Shown here in pieces: positions 7,873 to 16,292 of a stretch of DNA of 64,000 nt. A model generated the notes under the pieces. The model was given only the letters and a program-made list of their open reading frames with translations, had not been told where the DNA came from and did not search any database. The stretch's first letter is position 1. Each line of letters starts with the position of its first letter. Source of the DNA: Persephonella sp. KM09-Lau-8 (lineage in GTDB: Bacteria; Aquificota; Aquificia; Aquificales; Hydrogenothermaceae); assembly GCF_000703085.1 (NCBI RefSeq), contig NZ_JNLL01000001.1:1488001-1552000 (forward strand), given 5' to 3'. Both the position numbers and the translations under genes were made by a program.

Positions 7873-8621
7873 TGATAAAAGTGGCTTTCTGCATGAATCA
7901 GGGATTAAGGAGTTATCAACAGGATTGTATTTATATAGATGGGGAGATTTATCAGGTAGATTTTATGAAATGTCCTCAGGAAAAATCTTTAGATAAAGAC
8001 ACAGGAATTTTTGCTGTATGCGATGGTATGGGAGGGCTCGCTGAAGGGGATAAGGCAAGCAAATTTGTATGTGAAAAGTTAAAGGAGATAAACATAAATT
8101 TTTCCATTAATGCAGTTGAAGAAGCCCTTTACCAGATACAAAAAGAGTTTGAAAAAACAGATATAAAATGGAGCGGGACAACAATAGCTGGTGTTTATCT
8201 CAATGGTAAAAAGGCAATTATTTTTAATGCAGGGGATAGCAGGGTTTATAAGTATACTTCTGAAGGGCTTGTTTATCTGTCCCATGACCATAGCTATGTT
8301 CAGGAGCTTGTGGATGAAGGAATTATCTCCTATAAAGAGGCTTTTTATCATCCGGAAAGATATATTGTTACTTTTGGAATCGGTGATATATTTTCTGAAG
8401 AGTGGGAAAGTGGTAAAAGGCCATATCTTGTGGAAGATAAGTTAAAAGAAGATGAGCTTTATATAATATGTTCAGATGGTCTGTCAGATTATTTAACAGA
8501 TGAGGAGATATATTACCATCTGTATCCTGAGCCTTTTGAAAATTTCCCTATACTGATTGAGATGCTTGAAAAGGTCAAAAGTGATAACTATTCAATAATT
8601 CTTGTGAAGCCAGAAAATTAA
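7872..8621 (+). CDS. PP2C-family Ser/Thr protein phosphatase
   Basis: A 249-aa PPM/PP2C phosphatase that removes phosphate from Ser/Thr using two metal ions. Visible motifs are the N-terminal YQQD (D18), FAVCDGMGG (D51), FNAGDSRVY, and CSDGLSDYLTDEE, in the usual order. It is a bare cytoplasmic catalytic domain without membrane segments, like bacterial Stp/PrpC. Its ATG overlaps the stop of the GH114 lipoprotein gene (TAATG). No complete protein kinase is visible in the window, so its substrate is unknown. The 3' end overlaps the convergent dehydrogenase by 4 nt. Confidence 0.92.
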   Translation: MIKVAFCMNQGLRSYQQDCIYIDGEIYQVDFMKCPQEKSLDKDTGIFAVCDGMGGLAEGDKASKFVCEKLKEININFSINAVEEALYQIQKEFEKTDIKWSGTTIAGVYLNGKKAIIFNAGDSRVYKYTSEGLVYLSHDHSYVQELVDEGIISYKEAFYHPERYIVTFGIGDIFSEEWESGKRPYLVEDKLKEDELYIICSDGLSDYLTDEEIYYHLYPEPFENFPILIEMLEKVKSDNYSIILVKPEN

Positions 8622-9583
8622 ACTTTCAGATCCACCCTATTTCTAATTTCTCCGTTTAAGAATGCCCTTATATTTTCAACTATCTCATTAACAAGTCTTT
8701 TTCTGGCTTCTATACTGGTCCATGCAATATGGGGAGTTATAAGAAGTTTTTCTTTATTTTTTATTTTGAGAAGGGGATTTTCAGGGTCAATAGGTTCTTT
8801 TTCAAGAACATCAAGACCTGCACCACCTATCATATCGCTGTCTAAAGCTATTGCTAAATCTTTTTCATTTACAATGCCCCCTCTACCAAGATTAAGAAGT
8901 ATCGCATTTTCTTTCATAAGTTGAAGTTCATTAATTGTTATAAGATTCTTTGTTTTTTCATTAAGGGGCGCATGTATAGAAACTATATCAGAGGTTTTTA
9001 AAAGCTCATCAAGGGGATATCTGGGATATTTTTCCGGTCTTTCAACTCCAGAGGTTGAGTAGTATATGACATCGCATCCAAAACTCTCAGCAACTTCAGC
9101 AACCCTTCTTCCGATTGTGCCAAGACCTATAATACCCCATCTTTTTCCATGGATTTCCCAGAAAGGTCTGCCTAAATGGGTAAAGATATCGCTTTTTGCA
9201 TACTCTCCTGATTTTACATAATCATCATAGTATCTTAGGTGCATTAGTAGATAAAAAAGCATTCCAAAGGTAGTTTGAACTACGCTCTCTGTGGAGTATC
9301 CAGCAACATTTGTAACGGCAATACCTTTTTCCTTAGCATATAAAACATCAATATTGTTATATCCTGTTGCAGCTTCACATATTAGCTTTAGATTTCTGGC
9401 GGCGTTTATTGCATCCTTATCAATAACTACTTTGTTTGTTATTATGATATCTGCATCTTCTATCCTTTCGTATAATTCAGCTGGAGAGGTTGTAGGATAT
9501 ATTTCTACATCCCCAAACTGGGAAAATATTTCAAGATCTATATCATCCCCAAGTGTTTTGGCGTCCAGTACCACAATCTTCAT
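8618..9583 (-). CDS. D-isomer 2-hydroxyacid dehydrogenase (NAD-dependent)
   Basis: A 321-aa oxidoreductase interconverting a 2-oxoacid and a D-2-hydroxyacid with NAD(H). The Rossmann loop GLGTIG (153-158) sits in the middle, followed by the catalytic Arg in NLGRGGIVNE, a Glu in the DVLEKEP region, and the catalytic His in ITPHIAW. Length and order match glycerate/lactate/hydroxypyruvate dehydrogenases; there is no ACT domain, so it is not a full SerA. The exact substrate cannot be told. It is the last gene of the minus-strand block and its start is 17 nt downstream of the GGDEF-EAL stop. Confidence 0.9.
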   Translation of the reverse strand: MKIVVLDAKTLGDDIDLEIFSQFGDVEIYPTTSPAELYERIEDADIIITNKVVIDKDAINAARNLKLICEAATGYNNIDVLYAKEKGIAVTNVAGYSTESVVQTTFGMLFYLLMHLRYYDDYVKSGEYAKSDIFTHLGRPFWEIHGKRWGIIGLGTIGRRVAEVAESFGCDVIYYSTSGVERPEKYPRYPLDELLKTSDIVSIHAPLNEKTKNLITINELQLMKENAILLNLGRGGIVNEKDLAIALDSDMIGGAGLDVLEKEPIDPENPLLKIKNKEKLLITPHIAWTSIEARKRLVNEIVENIRAFLNGEIRNRVDLKV

Positions 9584-9600: not shown

Positions 9601-11493
9601 TCAGGCTATTTTCCTTTTTTCCACAGGTTGTGGTTTTCTTAAATAATATCCTTGCCCATAAATTATACCTAACTGAAGGACTTTTCTTAAAACAGATTCA
9701 GAATGTATATACTCTGCTATTACCTTTATGCCTGTATCATCTGCAAAAGATTTTATTGCCTTTACTATAGCAAGAGAACGATAATTGGTATCTATATCCT
9801 TTATAATACTACCATCTATTTTCAAATAATCAGGTGCAAGTTCTACAAGATGAGAAAAATTGGAATAACCACTACCAAAATCATCTATTGATATCTTACA
9901 TCCTATACCTTTTATATATTCAATTTTCTCTTTAAATGATGGATAATCATCAATATCTTCAGATTCTAATAACTCTATTGTTAACCTGCTGGCAAGTTCT
10001 TTATCCAAAACATTTTCCATATGCTCTATTATATTGTCATCATATACATCCAGTGCAGATAGGTTCATAGATATTCCCATCCAGGGATTTTCCTTTAGAA
10101 CCTTTGCATTGTATTCTATTACTTTTTTGGTGAGATCTATATGAACATACGTTCTCCTTATAGTGTTCAAAAACTGATACGGATATATGATTTTTCCATC
10201 CTTTGATATTAAGCGCACAAGTGCCTCGTATTTAAGAACTTCTCCAGTTTTAAGATTGACTATAGGCTGATACCAGCAAACGATATTATTGTTATCTATT
10301 GCTTCTTTTATTATGTAGATTTCTTCATGGTTAACTTCCAGAGGACCTGAATAAATTTCTATCTTATTTCTTCCATTTTTCTTGGCTTTATAAAGAGCCA
10401 TATCTGCCATTTTTATGGCTTCTTCTATAGATTTCTCAGCATAAGGGGCAATTCCTATTGAAACGGTTACTTTCATACTGATATTTTCGTATGTTATAAC
10501 TCTTTTACATATCTCTGTTTTTATTCTGGTTGCCAGATTAAGAACATTGTATTTATAGTTTTCTGAATAGGGATTGATTTTGGCAAATAATAGAAATTCC
10601 TCTCCTCCGTATCTTATAAGGATATCATCCTCCCGAATACAACTTTTTATTCTTTCTGTGACCTCTTTTAGAACATGATCCCCAGCCTCATGACCAAAGC
10701 TATCATTTATTTTCTTAAAATGATCTATATCTATTACAAATGTTGTATAAAATCCTTTTTTGAGTTTTTCAATATTTTCATAAAGATATAATCTGTTATA
10801 GGCTCCTGTTAATGGATCTATATACATTTTTTTGACATTTTCTCTATATTTTATGAACTGAATTAGAGATATCACTATTGATACCACAATAAAAAGTGAT
10901 ATTATCAGAACGAATTCCTGAATTTTGCTGATTATTGCCTGTATCTCTTTAAGCTTTTTAACAGAAAATTCTATAACAGCAATCCCTGCGACTTTATGAT
11001 TTATTTTTATAGGCTTTAAAAGGGTTATCCATAAACCTGTGTAGTCTGATTGTTTAATAACCACACTTTTACCATCTTTTAGAACACTATCCCAGTAGTC
11101 TCCATATATATTAAAACCTTCTCTAAATCTGGCTCTATCTTCTTTTGAAAGGTCTATAAGATATCTGAGCTTTCCATCTTTGTCTTTATAAAGGATATAC
11201 GCATATTTAACGTCATCTGTGACTATAACAGAGAGTTGATCTCTTATTTTTTTCCTGAATTTTGGATCTGAAAAGAGTGACTCAAGGTCTTTATTCTTTG
11301 CATTTATCTGTATTGTCCTGATTATCTTATCAAGGCTCTGAACTACTCCCGGGACAACAGCTTCTTTTATTATACTGTCTTCTATAGTCTTTTTAATTTT
11401 TGGTGCCATTATATAGACAGATATAAGCAAACCAAGTAACACTATAAAGAAAGGCATATAATCAAAAAGTAATCTTTTATCTTTCCTTACCAC
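9601..11493 (-). CDS. Membrane GGDEF-EAL protein with periplasmic sensor domain
   Basis: A 630-aa c-di-GMP enzyme: membrane segment 12-30, periplasmic sensor of about 160 residues (CACHE-like in length), membrane segment about 194-215, GGDEF domain and EAL domain. The GGDEF signature is GGEEF (296-300) with an inhibitory I-site R287-EDD290 five residues upstream. The EAL domain keeps E423-A-L, NLSALDVYD, ELLESED, DDFG (537-540), KIDG and GQGYYL. Both activities look intact, so it could make or break c-di-GMP depending on the sensor. Its start overlaps the YfiR-like gene by 7 nt, and the TonB receptor is just upstream, pointing to a signal relayed from outer membrane or periplasm. Confidence 0.93.
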   Translation of the reverse strand: MVRKDKRLLFDYMPFFIVLLGLLISVYIMAPKIKKTIEDSIIKEAVVPGVVQSLDKIIRTIQINAKNKDLESLFSDPKFRKKIRDQLSVIVTDDVKYAYILYKDKDGKLRYLIDLSKEDRARFREGFNIYGDYWDSVLKDGKSVVIKQSDYTGLWITLLKPIKINHKVAGIAVIEFSVKKLKEIQAIISKIQEFVLIISLFIVVSIVISLIQFIKYRENVKKMYIDPLTGAYNRLYLYENIEKLKKGFYTTFVIDIDHFKKINDSFGHEAGDHVLKEVTERIKSCIREDDILIRYGGEEFLLFAKINPYSENYKYNVLNLATRIKTEICKRVITYENISMKVTVSIGIAPYAEKSIEEAIKMADMALYKAKKNGRNKIEIYSGPLEVNHEEIYIIKEAIDNNNIVCWYQPIVNLKTGEVLKYEALVRLISKDGKIIYPYQFLNTIRRTYVHIDLTKKVIEYNAKVLKENPWMGISMNLSALDVYDDNIIEHMENVLDKELASRLTIELLESEDIDDYPSFKEKIEYIKGIGCKISIDDFGSGYSNFSHLVELAPDYLKIDGSIIKDIDTNYRSLAIVKAIKSFADDTGIKVIAEYIHSESVLRKVLQLGIIYGQGYYLRKPQPVEKRKIA

Positions 11494-11927
11494 AGATTAT
11501 TTTCCCTCTCCAGATATTTTCTGTACCTGTCTGGTAATTTGATATTAAACTGTTCGAGCCTATCTTTAACAAAAACCACATTTGGTCTGCCTTTCTTCCA
11601 GTAAATAGCTCCAATTGCATTTTTATACTTCTTAAGAAGATAGTATTTAGTTACTATTGCAGGTTTATTACACTTTTTTAACAACCTTTCATCACCAGTA
11701 ATAAGAATATGTGCCTTTTTACAGCTTAATGTATGAGACAGTATTTTAGAATATTTAAGAATATATTTTAAATCTGAAGAGGTAACCACTTTGATTTTTT
11801 TATTATTTTTCGCGATAATATGGGCCATTTCAGAAATAATTTCAGCCTCAACTTTTTTTATCTCTTCTTCGTATCCAAAAGCCAGAGAAAATGTAAAGAA
11901 AAGAAAGACCAGTATACTTCTAAGCAT
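11487..11927 (-). CDS. Periplasmic YfiR-like (DUF4154-type) regulator
   Basis: A 146-aa exported protein: cleavable signal peptide (about residues 1-18), then a small alpha/beta domain. The pattern HILITGDE, a Cys pair (C69, C86), then AIGAIYWKKGRPNVVF and IKLPDRYRKYL resembles the YfiR fold, where a 'GxIxF-x-KGR-x-F' strand pair precedes a final helix. In Pseudomonas, YfiR binds the periplasmic part of the cyclase YfiN and keeps it off. Here the partner would be the GGDEF-EAL protein, whose gene it overlaps by 7 nt. The similarity is distant and read by eye. Confidence 0.62.
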   Translation of the reverse strand: MLRSILVFLFFTFSLAFGYEEEIKKVEAEIISEMAHIIAKNNKKIKVVTSSDLKYILKYSKILSHTLSCKKAHILITGDERLLKKCNKPAIVTKYYLLKKYKNAIGAIYWKKGRPNVVFVKDRLEQFNIKLPDRYRKYLERENNLW

Positions 11928-11930
11928 CTA

Positions 11931-13784
11931 TTAAAAATCCCTTTCCAGCGTGATTAAAACTCTCCTATCTTCTTGATAAATCTGTACATTTTTATCATTC
12001 AACAGGGGTATCTTAATAGCTTTATCTAAAAGATTATAACCTTTAATAGCAACTTTCGTATTATCAAATAAACTAATCTTAACTCCGGCATTTAATTCAA
12101 ATCCAGATTTAATCCATGTGCCATAAAAGCCATAGCCTTTTCTGTATACATTTTCCACAAATGCTGAATAATTATTCTGCTGAATACCTATTCTAAATAA
12201 TCCTCCTTCTGAAGATGCTGTTTTATACCTCCTTTTTTCAGGATATACTTTGAAATAGCCAGCATTTATATAAACGCCATTATCAAAGTCTTTCTGACAA
12301 TCTACAGACCAGAAATAGTATCTAAGCTTTTGATCTACATTTATGTAAGAATATGTATATGGAGATATCATAATATTGTCTTTTATGAGAAATGTTCCTC
12401 CTGTTACTGTAAGTCTACCTACTGGATAAACACCTGAATACTCAAATGTTAGACCTCTATTCTCCTGTTTTTTCAGTTGAGGATTTGATCGGACTTCAAC
12501 AAAAAATGGCGGAGTATAATATTTAGACAAAAATAATTTTAAATAATCTGATTTATTCAGAAAATAAACTGTTCCAATGCGCCATATTAGGCCTTCAATA
12601 TCACGACCGTATCCCCTTTCGGTATTTTCATATTTAAATCCTGCAATAAATCCTAACTGAGGTTTCAGGTTATACACATTCTCTATATAAAATGAACGAT
12701 AGTTTTCCCAATTTTTATCTTTCAAATTTCCTGGGAACAATTGTTGATCTAATTTGTATTTAGAGTGCTGAATTTTAATGCCATAAAAAAGTTTGTTATT
12801 TTTATTTCTGCTTTCTCCAACAACTTCCGTCCCTGTTTTCATCGAATTTATATGCTGCAAGTATGAAAAAACAGGCATACGGGGATATCTAATAACAACT
12901 GGGTTTGTAAGACTACCTTTTTCATATCTATCAATGTTTATTTTATCTGCATATAATCTTAGTTTTAGATTTAAATCCTGAGAGATTATTTTGGATATAG
13001 AAATATAGCCATGTGATGCCTGATTATCGGAGTAATCTGGTTTACTTCTTAATGTATTTCCCCTAAACTCATCTGAGTTTTTTATGGCAAGCCCAGTTTC
13101 TAAAGACCATTCGTCAAAATAAAATCCACCAATAATGTAGTAATACTTATCATCAATTTTTAAATTTTTTGGATATTTCTGGGATTTATAAGTTTCTCTG
13201 TTTATAAGTAAAAATGCAGAACTTTTAGAACCTGTTTCTCCTGCAAGATACACAGAAAAAGAGTAATCATTTCTTGTTGAATATGATAATCTTACTGTTT
13301 TTACATTTTCCATTTCAGGTTTTTTTGTGTAAACCTTTATAATCATTCCAGCTGCTTCATTATTGAACTTGAGAGCACTTTCTCCCTGATAAATTTCAAT
13401 ATGGTCTATATGGTCAAGGGGCATATCTGCCCATAATGAAAGCGGGGTTTTTCTGTAAACTCCGCTAATTTCATGATCATTTATAAATAATCGAATTGTT
13501 GAGTTTTCGAGGGGATATATTGATGCGTAGGAAAGTGTATTTTCGCCATACTGATTTCTTAATAAGGTGAAATATCTAACATATCTAAGTAAATCTGAAA
13601 GTTTATACCCTTGAAGTTTTTGGATATCTTCTCTGGTAAATAAAATCAGATGCCCTTCTGTTTCCTGAACTGTTCTTTTGTATAACTGATTAAGCTCTCT
13701 ATATCTTTCTAATAATCTTTCAAGATTTTCTCCGTATGCTATATAGCTAAAGATAAAAAAAATCAGTAGTAATCTTTTTGCCAT
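11931..13784 (-). CDS. TonB-dependent outer membrane receptor
   Basis: A 617-aa outer membrane protein with a signal peptide (about 1-18), a plug domain (residues about 35-150: LILFTREDIQKLQGYKLSDLL, IRLFINDHEISG, DHIEIYQGESALKF) and a beta-barrel rich in Tyr/Asn-alternating strands ending in aromatic F, as usual for barrel insertion. It would take up a chelated metal or other solute with energy from TonB. The substrate is unknown. It is followed after 3 nt by the YfiR-like gene and overlaps mobA by 22 nt upstream, so it may serve as the sensing surface of the c-di-GMP operon as well as, or instead of, a transporter. Confidence 0.88.
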   Translation of the reverse strand: MAKRLLLIFFIFSYIAYGENLERLLERYRELNQLYKRTVQETEGHLILFTREDIQKLQGYKLSDLLRYVRYFTLLRNQYGENTLSYASIYPLENSTIRLFINDHEISGVYRKTPLSLWADMPLDHIDHIEIYQGESALKFNNEAAGMIIKVYTKKPEMENVKTVRLSYSTRNDYSFSVYLAGETGSKSSAFLLINRETYKSQKYPKNLKIDDKYYYIIGGFYFDEWSLETGLAIKNSDEFRGNTLRSKPDYSDNQASHGYISISKIISQDLNLKLRLYADKINIDRYEKGSLTNPVVIRYPRMPVFSYLQHINSMKTGTEVVGESRNKNNKLFYGIKIQHSKYKLDQQLFPGNLKDKNWENYRSFYIENVYNLKPQLGFIAGFKYENTERGYGRDIEGLIWRIGTVYFLNKSDYLKLFLSKYYTPPFFVEVRSNPQLKKQENRGLTFEYSGVYPVGRLTVTGGTFLIKDNIMISPYTYSYINVDQKLRYYFWSVDCQKDFDNGVYINAGYFKVYPEKRRYKTASSEGGLFRIGIQQNNYSAFVENVYRKGYGFYGTWIKSGFELNAGVKISLFDNTKVAIKGYNLLDKAIKIPLLNDKNVQIYQEDRRVLITLERDF

Positions 13785-14398
13785 ATATTTAGTAACCTCT
13801 CATAATCTTCCGGTCTGTTAATACTCCAGTATGACAGCAGAGAGTCATCCACCTGCTTTAATTCTTCCTGTGCAACTTCCTGAACATTTAGTCTGTTTAC
13901 CCATGCATAAAGGGAATTTTTCCCTTCTTCATATACCTTATCGGCAATTTTTAAGGCAGCTCTTTTGTATATAGTGTTTAAAAACTGTTTTTTCCCATTT
14001 ACCACCGGAATAATTGCATCATATCCATCTATTTTTTTCACAAAAAAAGGAATCAGTTCCGGCTCCAGCAGTGGAGTATCGCAGGTTGCTATAAAAACAA
14101 GCTGGTTTTTTATATACGGCATACAGCTAACAATTGCATTTAAAGGACCTGCATAAGGGTCTTTGTCCTTTACAAATACAGAATTTATGTCTGTATTTTC
14201 TAATTGGGATAGGTAAATCTCTTTATCTTTATTGGCAGAAACAATTATCTGGTCTGTATATACATTAAGTTTTTCTATTATTATCCTGAAAAAAGTTTTT
14301 TCTCCCAGCTTTAAAAATGCCTTATCCCTTCCCATACGTTTACTCTGGCCACCTGCTAACAGGATAGCCGTTATTTTTAACTTTTCTTTTTCTGACAT
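13763..14398 (-). CDS. mobA: Molybdenum cofactor guanylyltransferase
   Basis: A 211-aa nucleotidyltransferase that joins GMP to molybdopterin to give the MGD cofactor needed by NarB. The N-terminal signature LAGGQSKRMGRDKAF (residues about 14-28) binds GTP, and TCDTPLL is the metal-binding Asp region. Length fits MobA. The gene overlaps the TonB receptor (22 nt) and the Fur-family gene (22 nt), forming a tight run. A separate mobB is at 57239. Confidence 0.92.
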   Translation of the reverse strand: MSEKEKLKITAILLAGGQSKRMGRDKAFLKLGEKTFFRIIIEKLNVYTDQIIVSANKDKEIYLSQLENTDINSVFVKDKDPYAGPLNAIVSCMPYIKNQLVFIATCDTPLLEPELIPFFVKKIDGYDAIIPVVNGKKQFLNTIYKRAALKIADKVYEEGKNSLYAWVNRLNVQEVAQEELKQVDDSLLSYWSINRPEDYERLLNIWQKDYY

Positions 14399-14817
14399 TT
14401 TTCACACAGACCAAATATTTCTAATCTATGAAATTCTGGCTTAAATTTATATTCCTGACATATTTTGTCCTGCAATTCCTCTATTTTGTCTGAATGGAAT
14501 TCTATAATCTTTCCGCAACTTCTACATATTAGATGGTCATGATGTTCTTTTAGATTAACTTCATAAATTGTTTTGTTTTTGAATTTTATTACTTCCCTTA
14601 CATATCCAAGCTCTTTTAGTATTTCAAGAGTTCTATAAACAGTAGCCCTTGATACATTTATATTCTTTGACTGAATTTTGTGCACCAGTTGTTCAATCTC
14701 AAAATGCCCTCTGGTATTAAGAATAGCCTTAAAAACTTTTTCTCTCTGAGGAGTATACTTAAGTCCTAAATTTTTTATTGTCTGTTTAAACTCTTTTAAT
14801 GCCTGTCTTTTATTCAT
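14377..14817 (-). CDS. Fur-family metal/peroxide-responsive repressor
   Basis: A 146-aa regulator: winged helix (about 15-85: YTPQREKVFKAIL, NVSRATVYRTLEILKELGYV) and a dimerisation domain with HHDHLICRSCG and a final CEKCQ, the two CxxC pairs that bind structural zinc. It could be Fur, PerR or Zur; the sequence does not decide. Its place just upstream of mobA and the TonB receptor suggests it controls metal uptake and perhaps the downstream signalling genes. It is 3 nt downstream of the flavin reductase gene. Confidence 0.92.
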   Translation of the reverse strand: MNKRQALKEFKQTIKNLGLKYTPQREKVFKAILNTRGHFEIEQLVHKIQSKNINVSRATVYRTLEILKELGYVREVIKFKNKTIYEVNLKEHHDHLICRSCGKIIEFHSDKIEELQDKICQEYKFKPEFHRLEIFGLCEKCQKKKS

Positions 14818-15443: not shown

Positions 15444-16292
15444 TCAGACTGCAACAACTTTATTTTTACCTGATTTTTTGGCCATATAAAGAGCAGTATC
15501 AACTCTTCTTATTATAGACTTTAGAATATCTCCATTTTTATACATTGTTACACCTGCACTTATTGTTACTCTGTTAACTTTGGGAAATTTATATTCTTCT
15601 ATTTTCTTTCTTATTTTTTCTGCAACCTTGGAAGCTTCATTTATATTTTTAACAGGTAAAATTATCATAAATTCTTCTCCTCCCCATCTACCAAAAATAT
15701 CTGATTTTCTTATGTTTTCTTTAACTATCTGAGATATTTTTTTCAAAATTATATCTCCTGTTTGATGACCATAGGTATCATTTATTTTTTTAAAGTTGTC
15801 AATATCAAACATGATTAGGGCAAAGTTAGTTCCATATCTTTCTGCTCTACTTATTTCTTCCTCAAGGAATTTCTCAAAAGCATATCTGTTATAAATACCT
15901 GTTAATCTATCTATTGTGGCAAGTTTCCTGAGCTGTCTTTCTAAATTTTTCTTATCGGTTATATCTATAAGACCACTGATACTGCATCTTTTTCCATCAA
16001 GTTTTATTTCTTCAGTAATAACCTCAACCCATAAAATTTTGCCTGAAACGGTTTTTATTTTAAGCTCCCTTTTATCTTTATGACTTTTTGAAATAGCCCT
16101 GTAAATCTGAAGTAAAGCTCGGCGGCTTTCTGGAAGAATAATGTCTTTAAGCCATAAATCCTGTATATCTGTAATCCCTAACATCTTTTTTAATGTTTTA
16201 TTTACAAAAATAATCCTCCCATCACACTGAACCAGAATTCCAATGGGAGCTTTTTCAATTAATTGCTGGAAAAGATCCTTTTCAATATTCAT
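15444..16292 (-). CDS. PAS-GGDEF diguanylate cyclase (cytoplasmic)
   Basis: A 282-aa protein with one PAS domain (residues about 8-115, with IGILVQCDGRIIFVNKTLKKMLG) joined by a helix to a GGDEF domain. The active site is GGEEF (204-208) and the I-site is R195-KSD198, so it should make c-di-GMP and be product-inhibited. No membrane segment is seen. The PAS ligand is unknown. It is the second c-di-GMP enzyme in the same minus-strand run. Confidence 0.93.
   Translation of the reverse strand: MNIEKDLFQQLIEKAPIGILVQCDGRIIFVNKTLKKMLGITDIQDLWLKDIILPESRRALLQIYRAISKSHKDKRELKIKTVSGKILWVEVITEEIKLDGKRCSISGLIDITDKKNLERQLRKLATIDRLTGIYNRYAFEKFLEEEISRAERYGTNFALIMFDIDNFKKINDTYGHQTGDIILKKISQIVKENIRKSDIFGRWGGEEFMIILPVKNINEASKVAEKIRKKIEEYKFPKVNRVTISAGVTMYKNGDILKSIIRRVDTALYMAKKSGKNKVVAV

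Follow-up and report, generated by a model that had tools for sequence, protein, structure and literature searches.

A TonB-receptor-type barrel, a predicted YfiR-fold protein and a membrane GGDEF-EAL enzyme form a recurrent gene module and a probable trans-envelope relay

We analysed a stretch of 64,000 nucleotides (nt) from the 2.07-Mb genome of Persephonella sp. KM09-Lau-8 (contig NZ_JNLL01000001.1, positions 1,488,001 to 1,552,000; hereafter the window), in which three genes lying side by side on the minus strand at positions 9601-13784 encode a TonB-receptor-like outer-membrane barrel, a small exported periplasmic protein that we call S, and a membrane enzyme with GGDEF and EAL domains. 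The barrel gene (11931..13784) specifies 617 amino acids (aa), the S gene (11487..11927) 146 aa, and the enzyme gene (9601..11493), which begins with GTG, 630 aa. In the direction of transcription the open reading frames (ORFs) of this locus run fur-like, mobA-like, barrel, S and enzyme. An earlier note on this DNA had described the trio as one operon with overlaps of 3 and 7 nt. The ORFs were confirmed at these coordinates on the minus strand, and the 7-nt overlap of the S stop with the enzyme start (11487..11493) stands, whereas the 3 nt between barrel and S are a gap and not an overlap. The 7-nt overlap recurs in many Sulfurimonas loci.

The module is found well beyond this locus. Among 61 Aquificota genomes, 31 carry S-like genes, including the same-genus relative G013, and two modules per genome are common in the Persephonella-type genus; the second S in the genome of the window, 25% identical to the first, sits inside a second full module. 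The set lists 43 S places including that of the window, and 40 of the 42 others were used, giving 41 places, after exclusion of a G035 fragment interrupted by three stops and of the place in G033. In raw counts, 36 of these 41 have the barrel gene immediately upstream of S, the others being three contig ends and two further places, L038 (where the frame is broken) and L071; a sensor or GGDEF gene is directly downstream of S in 38, with L054 and L056 having it upstream and L062 meeting a contig end. A motif scan of species genomes based on nine S proteins returned 49 loci in Aquificota and Campylobacterota, most with the full trio, from genera that include Sulfurimonas, Sulfuricurvum, Arcobacter and Nitratiruptor. 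In 298 Campylobacterota genomes, a profile search then found S in 54, at 64 places, and for the 61 with a recovered S frame (L267, L272 and L275 were left out) the raw counts are 59 with the barrel directly upstream and 56 with a sensor or GGDEF gene directly downstream. Even where the enzyme is encoded upstream of the barrel (L054, L056, L273), the trio is still together. As the gene order recurs across two phyla, the trio cannot be put down to chance in a single genome.

The presence and divergence of the genes are likewise coupled. The barrel profile matches 27 of the 61 Aquificota genomes, every one of them S-positive, and of the 45 genomes with completeness of 90% or more and contamination of 5% or less, 22 have the barrel and the same ones have S. 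Of the S-positive genomes with no barrel match (G007, G010, G028, G033), none is more than 78% complete. The sensor is found in 34 of the 61, among them G021, G023, G029 and G030, which are without S. In the 29 Aquificota modules that are complete, the distances among barrels and those among S proteins correlate with a rho of 0.67, as compared with a mean of 0.12 and a maximum of 0.65 in 500 draws in which partners were swapped within genomes; for S with sensor (0.51) and barrel with sensor (0.50), one of 500 swaps reached the observed value, as a tie. Duplicated modules keep their own partners.

Sequence searches say little about S: those of Pfam, NCBIfam, PHROGs and PDB sequences yielded nothing credible, and a match of the S family to Pox_VLTF3 (E 0.004, in 1 of 34 members) was taken as chance. 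In a confident AlphaFold2 model (predicted local distance difference test score, pLDDT, 92.2; predicted template-modelling score 0.82) S has a predicted YfiR fold, and the model aligns by VIA-align 2 with YfiR over 121 residues at Z 10.5 and a root-mean-square deviation (rmsd) of 2.9-3.0 A, the value for chain 4xjy_D being 3.0. The entry 3lkv scores Z 10.6 but has an rmsd of 6.1, and further rows drop from Z 9.0 to below 6. Foldseek ranks single-domain binding proteins of R. marinus at the top by E-value (4e-4, with template-modelling (TM) scores of about 0.42-0.46), and lists YfiR entries at E-values of 0.006-0.07 with its highest TM-scores, up to 0.61. Since VIA-align 2 rows within 1 Z count as tied, YfiR is the best single-domain, low-rmsd match to S and not a unique one. 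We do not call the R. marinus proteins relatives of YfiR, as they are absent from a DUF4154 profile search of solved structures.

The relation of S to YfiR is stated here as one of predicted fold. DUF4154 (PF13689), the family of YfiR, matches none of 34 S-family members, and a profile search found it in none of 41 Aquificota genomes. Profile comparisons of S with DUF4154 that gave probabilities of 90.5% and 79% were discounted, having included the signal peptides; sequence homology is not claimed, because the probability fell to 9% for the mature parts, although the score of that mature comparison, 22.8, exceeds those of all 60 shuffled decoys (maximum 19.5). In P. aeruginosa YfiR, Phe162 has been singled out in a proposed YfiN-binding surface (PMC3375315). 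The strand that bears it corresponds collinearly to S residues 117-119, which are hydrophobic in all 132 S proteins; an alignment by eye is out of register with the profile alignment by two residues. YfiR has two conserved cysteine pairs, Cys71-110 and Cys145-152, whereas most S proteins have another pair; by the numbering of the window's S, pairs lie at positions 69/86 in 62 of 132 proteins and at 101/104 in 13, and 22 have none.

The enzyme combines a predicted periplasmic sensor with an apparently complete catalytic part. Its residues 1-215 (10849..11493) form, in an AlphaFold2 model with a pLDDT of 92.1, a transmembrane helix, a periplasmic domain and a second transmembrane helix. The extracellular domain of WalK is the closest structure (Z 13.9, rmsd 2.8, 141 residues aligned), Cache receptors come next, and the Foldseek list includes CitA, with the WalK-YycH model 9a5d also among the fold matches; the periplasmic domain is therefore predicted to be of PAS/Cache type, which is the type of YfiN. 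Pfam assigns the remainder to GGDEF (3e-37; residues 224-377, 10363..10824), with a GGEEF signature and an upstream RxxD, and to EAL (6e-57; residues 395-621, 9631..10311). The catalytic residues of both domains are intact in the window enzyme, and this holds for most relatives: the GGDEF signature is almost always preserved across 83 third-gene proteins that have the domain (its third position is E in 78 and D in 1), and of those proteins that reach the column, 72-74 retain the EAL catalytic residues. On these residues, the enzyme is expected to be bifunctional.

The cytoplasmic output is the part that varies. Most third genes encode GGDEF-EAL proteins and some GGDEF only, while at six loci (L232, L239, L240, L269, L270, L274) the barrel, S and the sensor are kept with a different core, and EAL is encoded in the next gene. 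This core was confirmed by Pfam as HisKA-HATPase in the three that were scanned (L232, L239, L269), and both of the next genes that were scanned (L232, L269) encode a response regulator of the form Response_reg-PAS-EAL. At L230 and L091 there are kinases whose N-termini the sensor profile fails to recognise. The barrel, S and the sensor make up a conserved unit under which the output has been exchanged in evolution.

The likeness of the barrel to TonB receptors, of which it is a divergent relation, is clearest in its plug. The window barrel matches the Pfam Plug domain (PF07715) over the cut-off at E 4.2e-6, and among solved structures it matches nothing but the plug region of the colicin I receptor, at E 0.003. 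Of six other barrels scanned, four match Plug, one of them over the cut-off. The beta-barrel domain PF00593 has no Pfam match in the window barrel or in the six relatives. Alignments of 127 barrels (including repeat records of the same genomes) and of 15 barrels show a conserved N-terminal segment at residues 24-64 (13593..13715), with the motif LL..Y.....Ls..Tk.Es.Gh.i..tR.dl..MQa.tL.D. Comparing it by eye with TonB boxes, we take this non-canonical segment to occupy the expected place of the TonB box. A match to the NCBIfam TonB-B12 family was dropped as a hint to the ligand, as its E-value of 4.5e-7 goes with 28.8 bits, where the cut-off is 599.7. Outside the window, the same genome encodes one more barrel of this family, its third (L282 5889-7814; G000:C1:1680891-1682780), with neither S nor a sensor enzyme beside it; this solitary barrel apparently has orthologues in G001, G006 and G013.

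We propose, with a probability of roughly 0.6, that the trio is a trans-envelope relay built on the YfiR-YfiN plan, in which a TonB-receptor-type barrel replaces the lipoprotein YfiB. The barrel would bind or transport a ligand at the cell surface; its plug and the conserved N-terminal segment would alter its hold on periplasmic S; S, as YfiR does with YfiN, would bind the PAS/Cache domain of the enzyme; and this binding would set the balance of the GGDEF and EAL activities, and so the level of cyclic di-GMP (c-di-GMP). We infer that the barrel senses and that S relays. The same analogy to YfiBNR had been drawn in the earlier note, together with the expectations that the 146-aa protein resembles YfiR and that the three genes remain neighbours in related genomes. 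The comparison of the modelled structure and the co-occurrence across Aquificota and Campylobacterota, both checks set beforehand, bear out the latter two. The analogy itself has good genomic support in adjacency across two phyla, and the modelled fold of S and the predicted PAS/Cache sensor agree with it.

With YfiBNR (AwsXRO/TpbB; known from P. aeruginosa and E. coli) the module shares a gene for a small periplasmic protein of YfiR fold, predicted in the case of S, beside one for a membrane c-di-GMP enzyme with a periplasmic PAS-type domain, as well as an outer-membrane partner gene and tight gene packing. It differs in that YfiB is an OmpA-like lipoprotein and the partner here is a TonB-receptor-type barrel (OmpA has no Pfam match among the seven window proteins scanned), in that S lies outside DUF4154, and in that the enzyme has EAL besides GGDEF and no HAMP match. 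In YfiN, HAMP stands between PAS and GGDEF, and the PAS domain bears an AAVVF motif that binds YfiR. The module would work like YfiBNR and yet is no member of it as judged by DUF4154, HAMP and YfiB. Two other systems bear comparison. In FecA-FecR-FecI, the barrel FecA uses an N-terminal signalling domain to act on an anti-sigma factor; there, too, a TonB-dependent barrel signals across the envelope, but no anti-sigma factor gene was seen beside the present module, whose output is c-di-GMP or a kinase. WalK has an extracytoplasmic PAS/Cache domain of the same shape that is regulated by partner proteins, YycH and YycI, although these are membrane-anchored, of another fold, and belong to Gram-positive bacteria with no outer membrane.

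Several observations weigh against the proposed relay. There is no significant sequence link between S and YfiR, BLASTP gives no alignment of S with P. aeruginosa YfiR, an R. marinus single-domain binding protein fits S nearly as well as YfiR does (Z 9.2, rmsd 3.0), and HAMP is absent from the Pfam matches of the window enzyme. At least 12 of 54 barrel matches have no neighbouring S, including the third copy in the genome of the window; in g9 (L287, L071) S and the enzyme occur with no barrel; and in g4 (L283 5129-7761, L284 5077-7709) the enzyme stands beside a mobA-like gene at the syntenic locus with barrel and S both gone, the neighbours in g4 and g9 being named from how closely their first residues resemble those of the genes in the window. 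The g4 locus is a natural loss of the module's input half. From the g9 and g4 exceptions, S and the enzyme emerge as the tightest pair, while barrel and S can vanish together. The barrels that lack S and the S-enzyme pairs that lack a barrel, along with the presence of TonB_C and ExbD genes, could also mean that the barrel is an ordinary transporter merely co-expressed with the S-enzyme pair, c-di-GMP signalling being independent of it. We regard this as quite unlikely, given that the barrel adjoins S in 95 of the 102 places with an S frame, in two phyla and in differing surroundings, that paralogous modules keep their own barrel, and that barrel and S are jointly absent in g4.

An alternative that we consider unlikely concerns S, which might be a small ligand carrier, equivalent to one half of a periplasmic binding protein of type I, passing the substrate imported by the barrel to the Cache/PAS domain in the manner of LuxP-LuxQ, and not a YfiR-like repressor. 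Cache domains usually bind small ligands. The periplasmic-binding-protein lobes 3lkv and 3lft and the R. marinus protein rank beside YfiR among the structure matches of S, LuxP-LuxQ appears lower among them (Z 7.8), and single-domain binding proteins have been reported near chemoreceptor genes (PMC10805632). YfiR itself, however, has been described as resembling 3LFT and 3LKV (PMC4655355), so that likeness to such lobes is no proof of ligand binding; among single-domain chains YfiR is the best match by TM-score and by alignment length at low rmsd, and S is a single lobe without the usual inter-lobe site.

On the nature of the signal the earlier note is not supported; it had taken the overlaps with mobA and fur as a hint that a metal, iron or molybdate, might be sensed. 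The overlaps are real: the mobA-like gene (13763..14398, minus strand) overlaps the barrel gene by 22 nt, and the gene for the Fur-family regulator (14377..14817, minus strand) overlaps mobA by 22 nt. Moreover, mobA adjoins the module at one g3 locus and the enzyme in g4. Both genes are context outside the conserved module, however: fur and mobA together flank only the type-1 module copy of g1 (Persephonella), and the other modules of the same genomes, as well as the Campylobacterota modules, have no such neighbours. The mobA link looks like synteny of the locus and not membership in the module, because in g4 mobA stays by the enzyme when barrel and S are gone, and a metal signal now appears highly improbable. 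On the other side of the module, a 321-aa gene (8618-9583, minus strand) starts 17 nt downstream of the enzyme and also follows it at 12-20 nt in L033, L034 and L035, for which reason the transcript may extend past the enzyme. A PAS-GGDEF gene (15444-16292, minus strand) lies upstream of the flavin-reductase-like and fur genes, and as it shares the strand of the module, two c-di-GMP genes occur in one same-strand run.

Proteins of DUF4154 proper are also found beside TonB receptors, which speaks for the proposed relay. Of the 298 genomes in the Campylobacterota set, 21 have DUF4154, at 30 places in all, and 22 of these places have an adjacent TonB receptor on the same strand. At 18 of the 30 a GGDEF or kinase gene lies no more than two genes away or shares the frame of DUF4154, and 14 have both. 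One TonB profile was built from ten of the DUF4154 neighbours, all with Pfam Plug, so these ten match by construction. At three of the 30 places (L198, L199, L200) DUF4154 forms a single frame with a longer protein, of 514-850 aa; we note GGDEF in L198, a HisKA-like motif in L200, and TonB receptors beside L198 and L199. Outside the 30, L122 has the same order of a barrel end, a DUF4154-like protein (E 1e-4) and a GGDEF gene, and this DUF4154-like protein had no match in a protein search of plasmids.

A modular YfiR-YfiN core, at a distance mostly without yfiB and with GGDEF-EAL, HPT or kinase outputs, has been described (Malone 2012, PMC3375315). The present module is like these divergent systems in joining a YfiR-type protein to a PAS-containing membrane protein with swapped outputs, and unlike them in that the S family lies outside DUF4154. 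TonB occurs nowhere in the main text of that paper, and our literature searches for YfiR or DUF4154 with TonB found no paper on such a pairing; the modular core is already known, and the TonB-type partner is, as far as these searches go, the new part. More tentatively, and at somewhat less than even odds, we suggest that TonB-receptor-type barrels are standing partners of YfiR-fold proteins widely in bacteria, and that barrel, adaptor and Cache/PAS sensor make up an interchangeable surface-sensing cassette that takes c-di-GMP enzymes or two-component kinases, in which the barrel family may be a dedicated sensor whose N-terminal segment replaces the TonB box.

The route by which signals enter the distant YfiR-YfiN systems that lack YfiB was left open in the text of PMC3375315. 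If our proposal is true, a barrel partner at the surface would link an extracellular ligand directly to c-di-GMP, and signalling by TonB receptors would extend beyond sigma-factor cascades. The module also gives a functional context to S, a Pfam-unmatched protein family of two phyla, and offers a test system in chemolithotrophs of vent and sulfur habitats such as Sulfurimonas and Persephonella.

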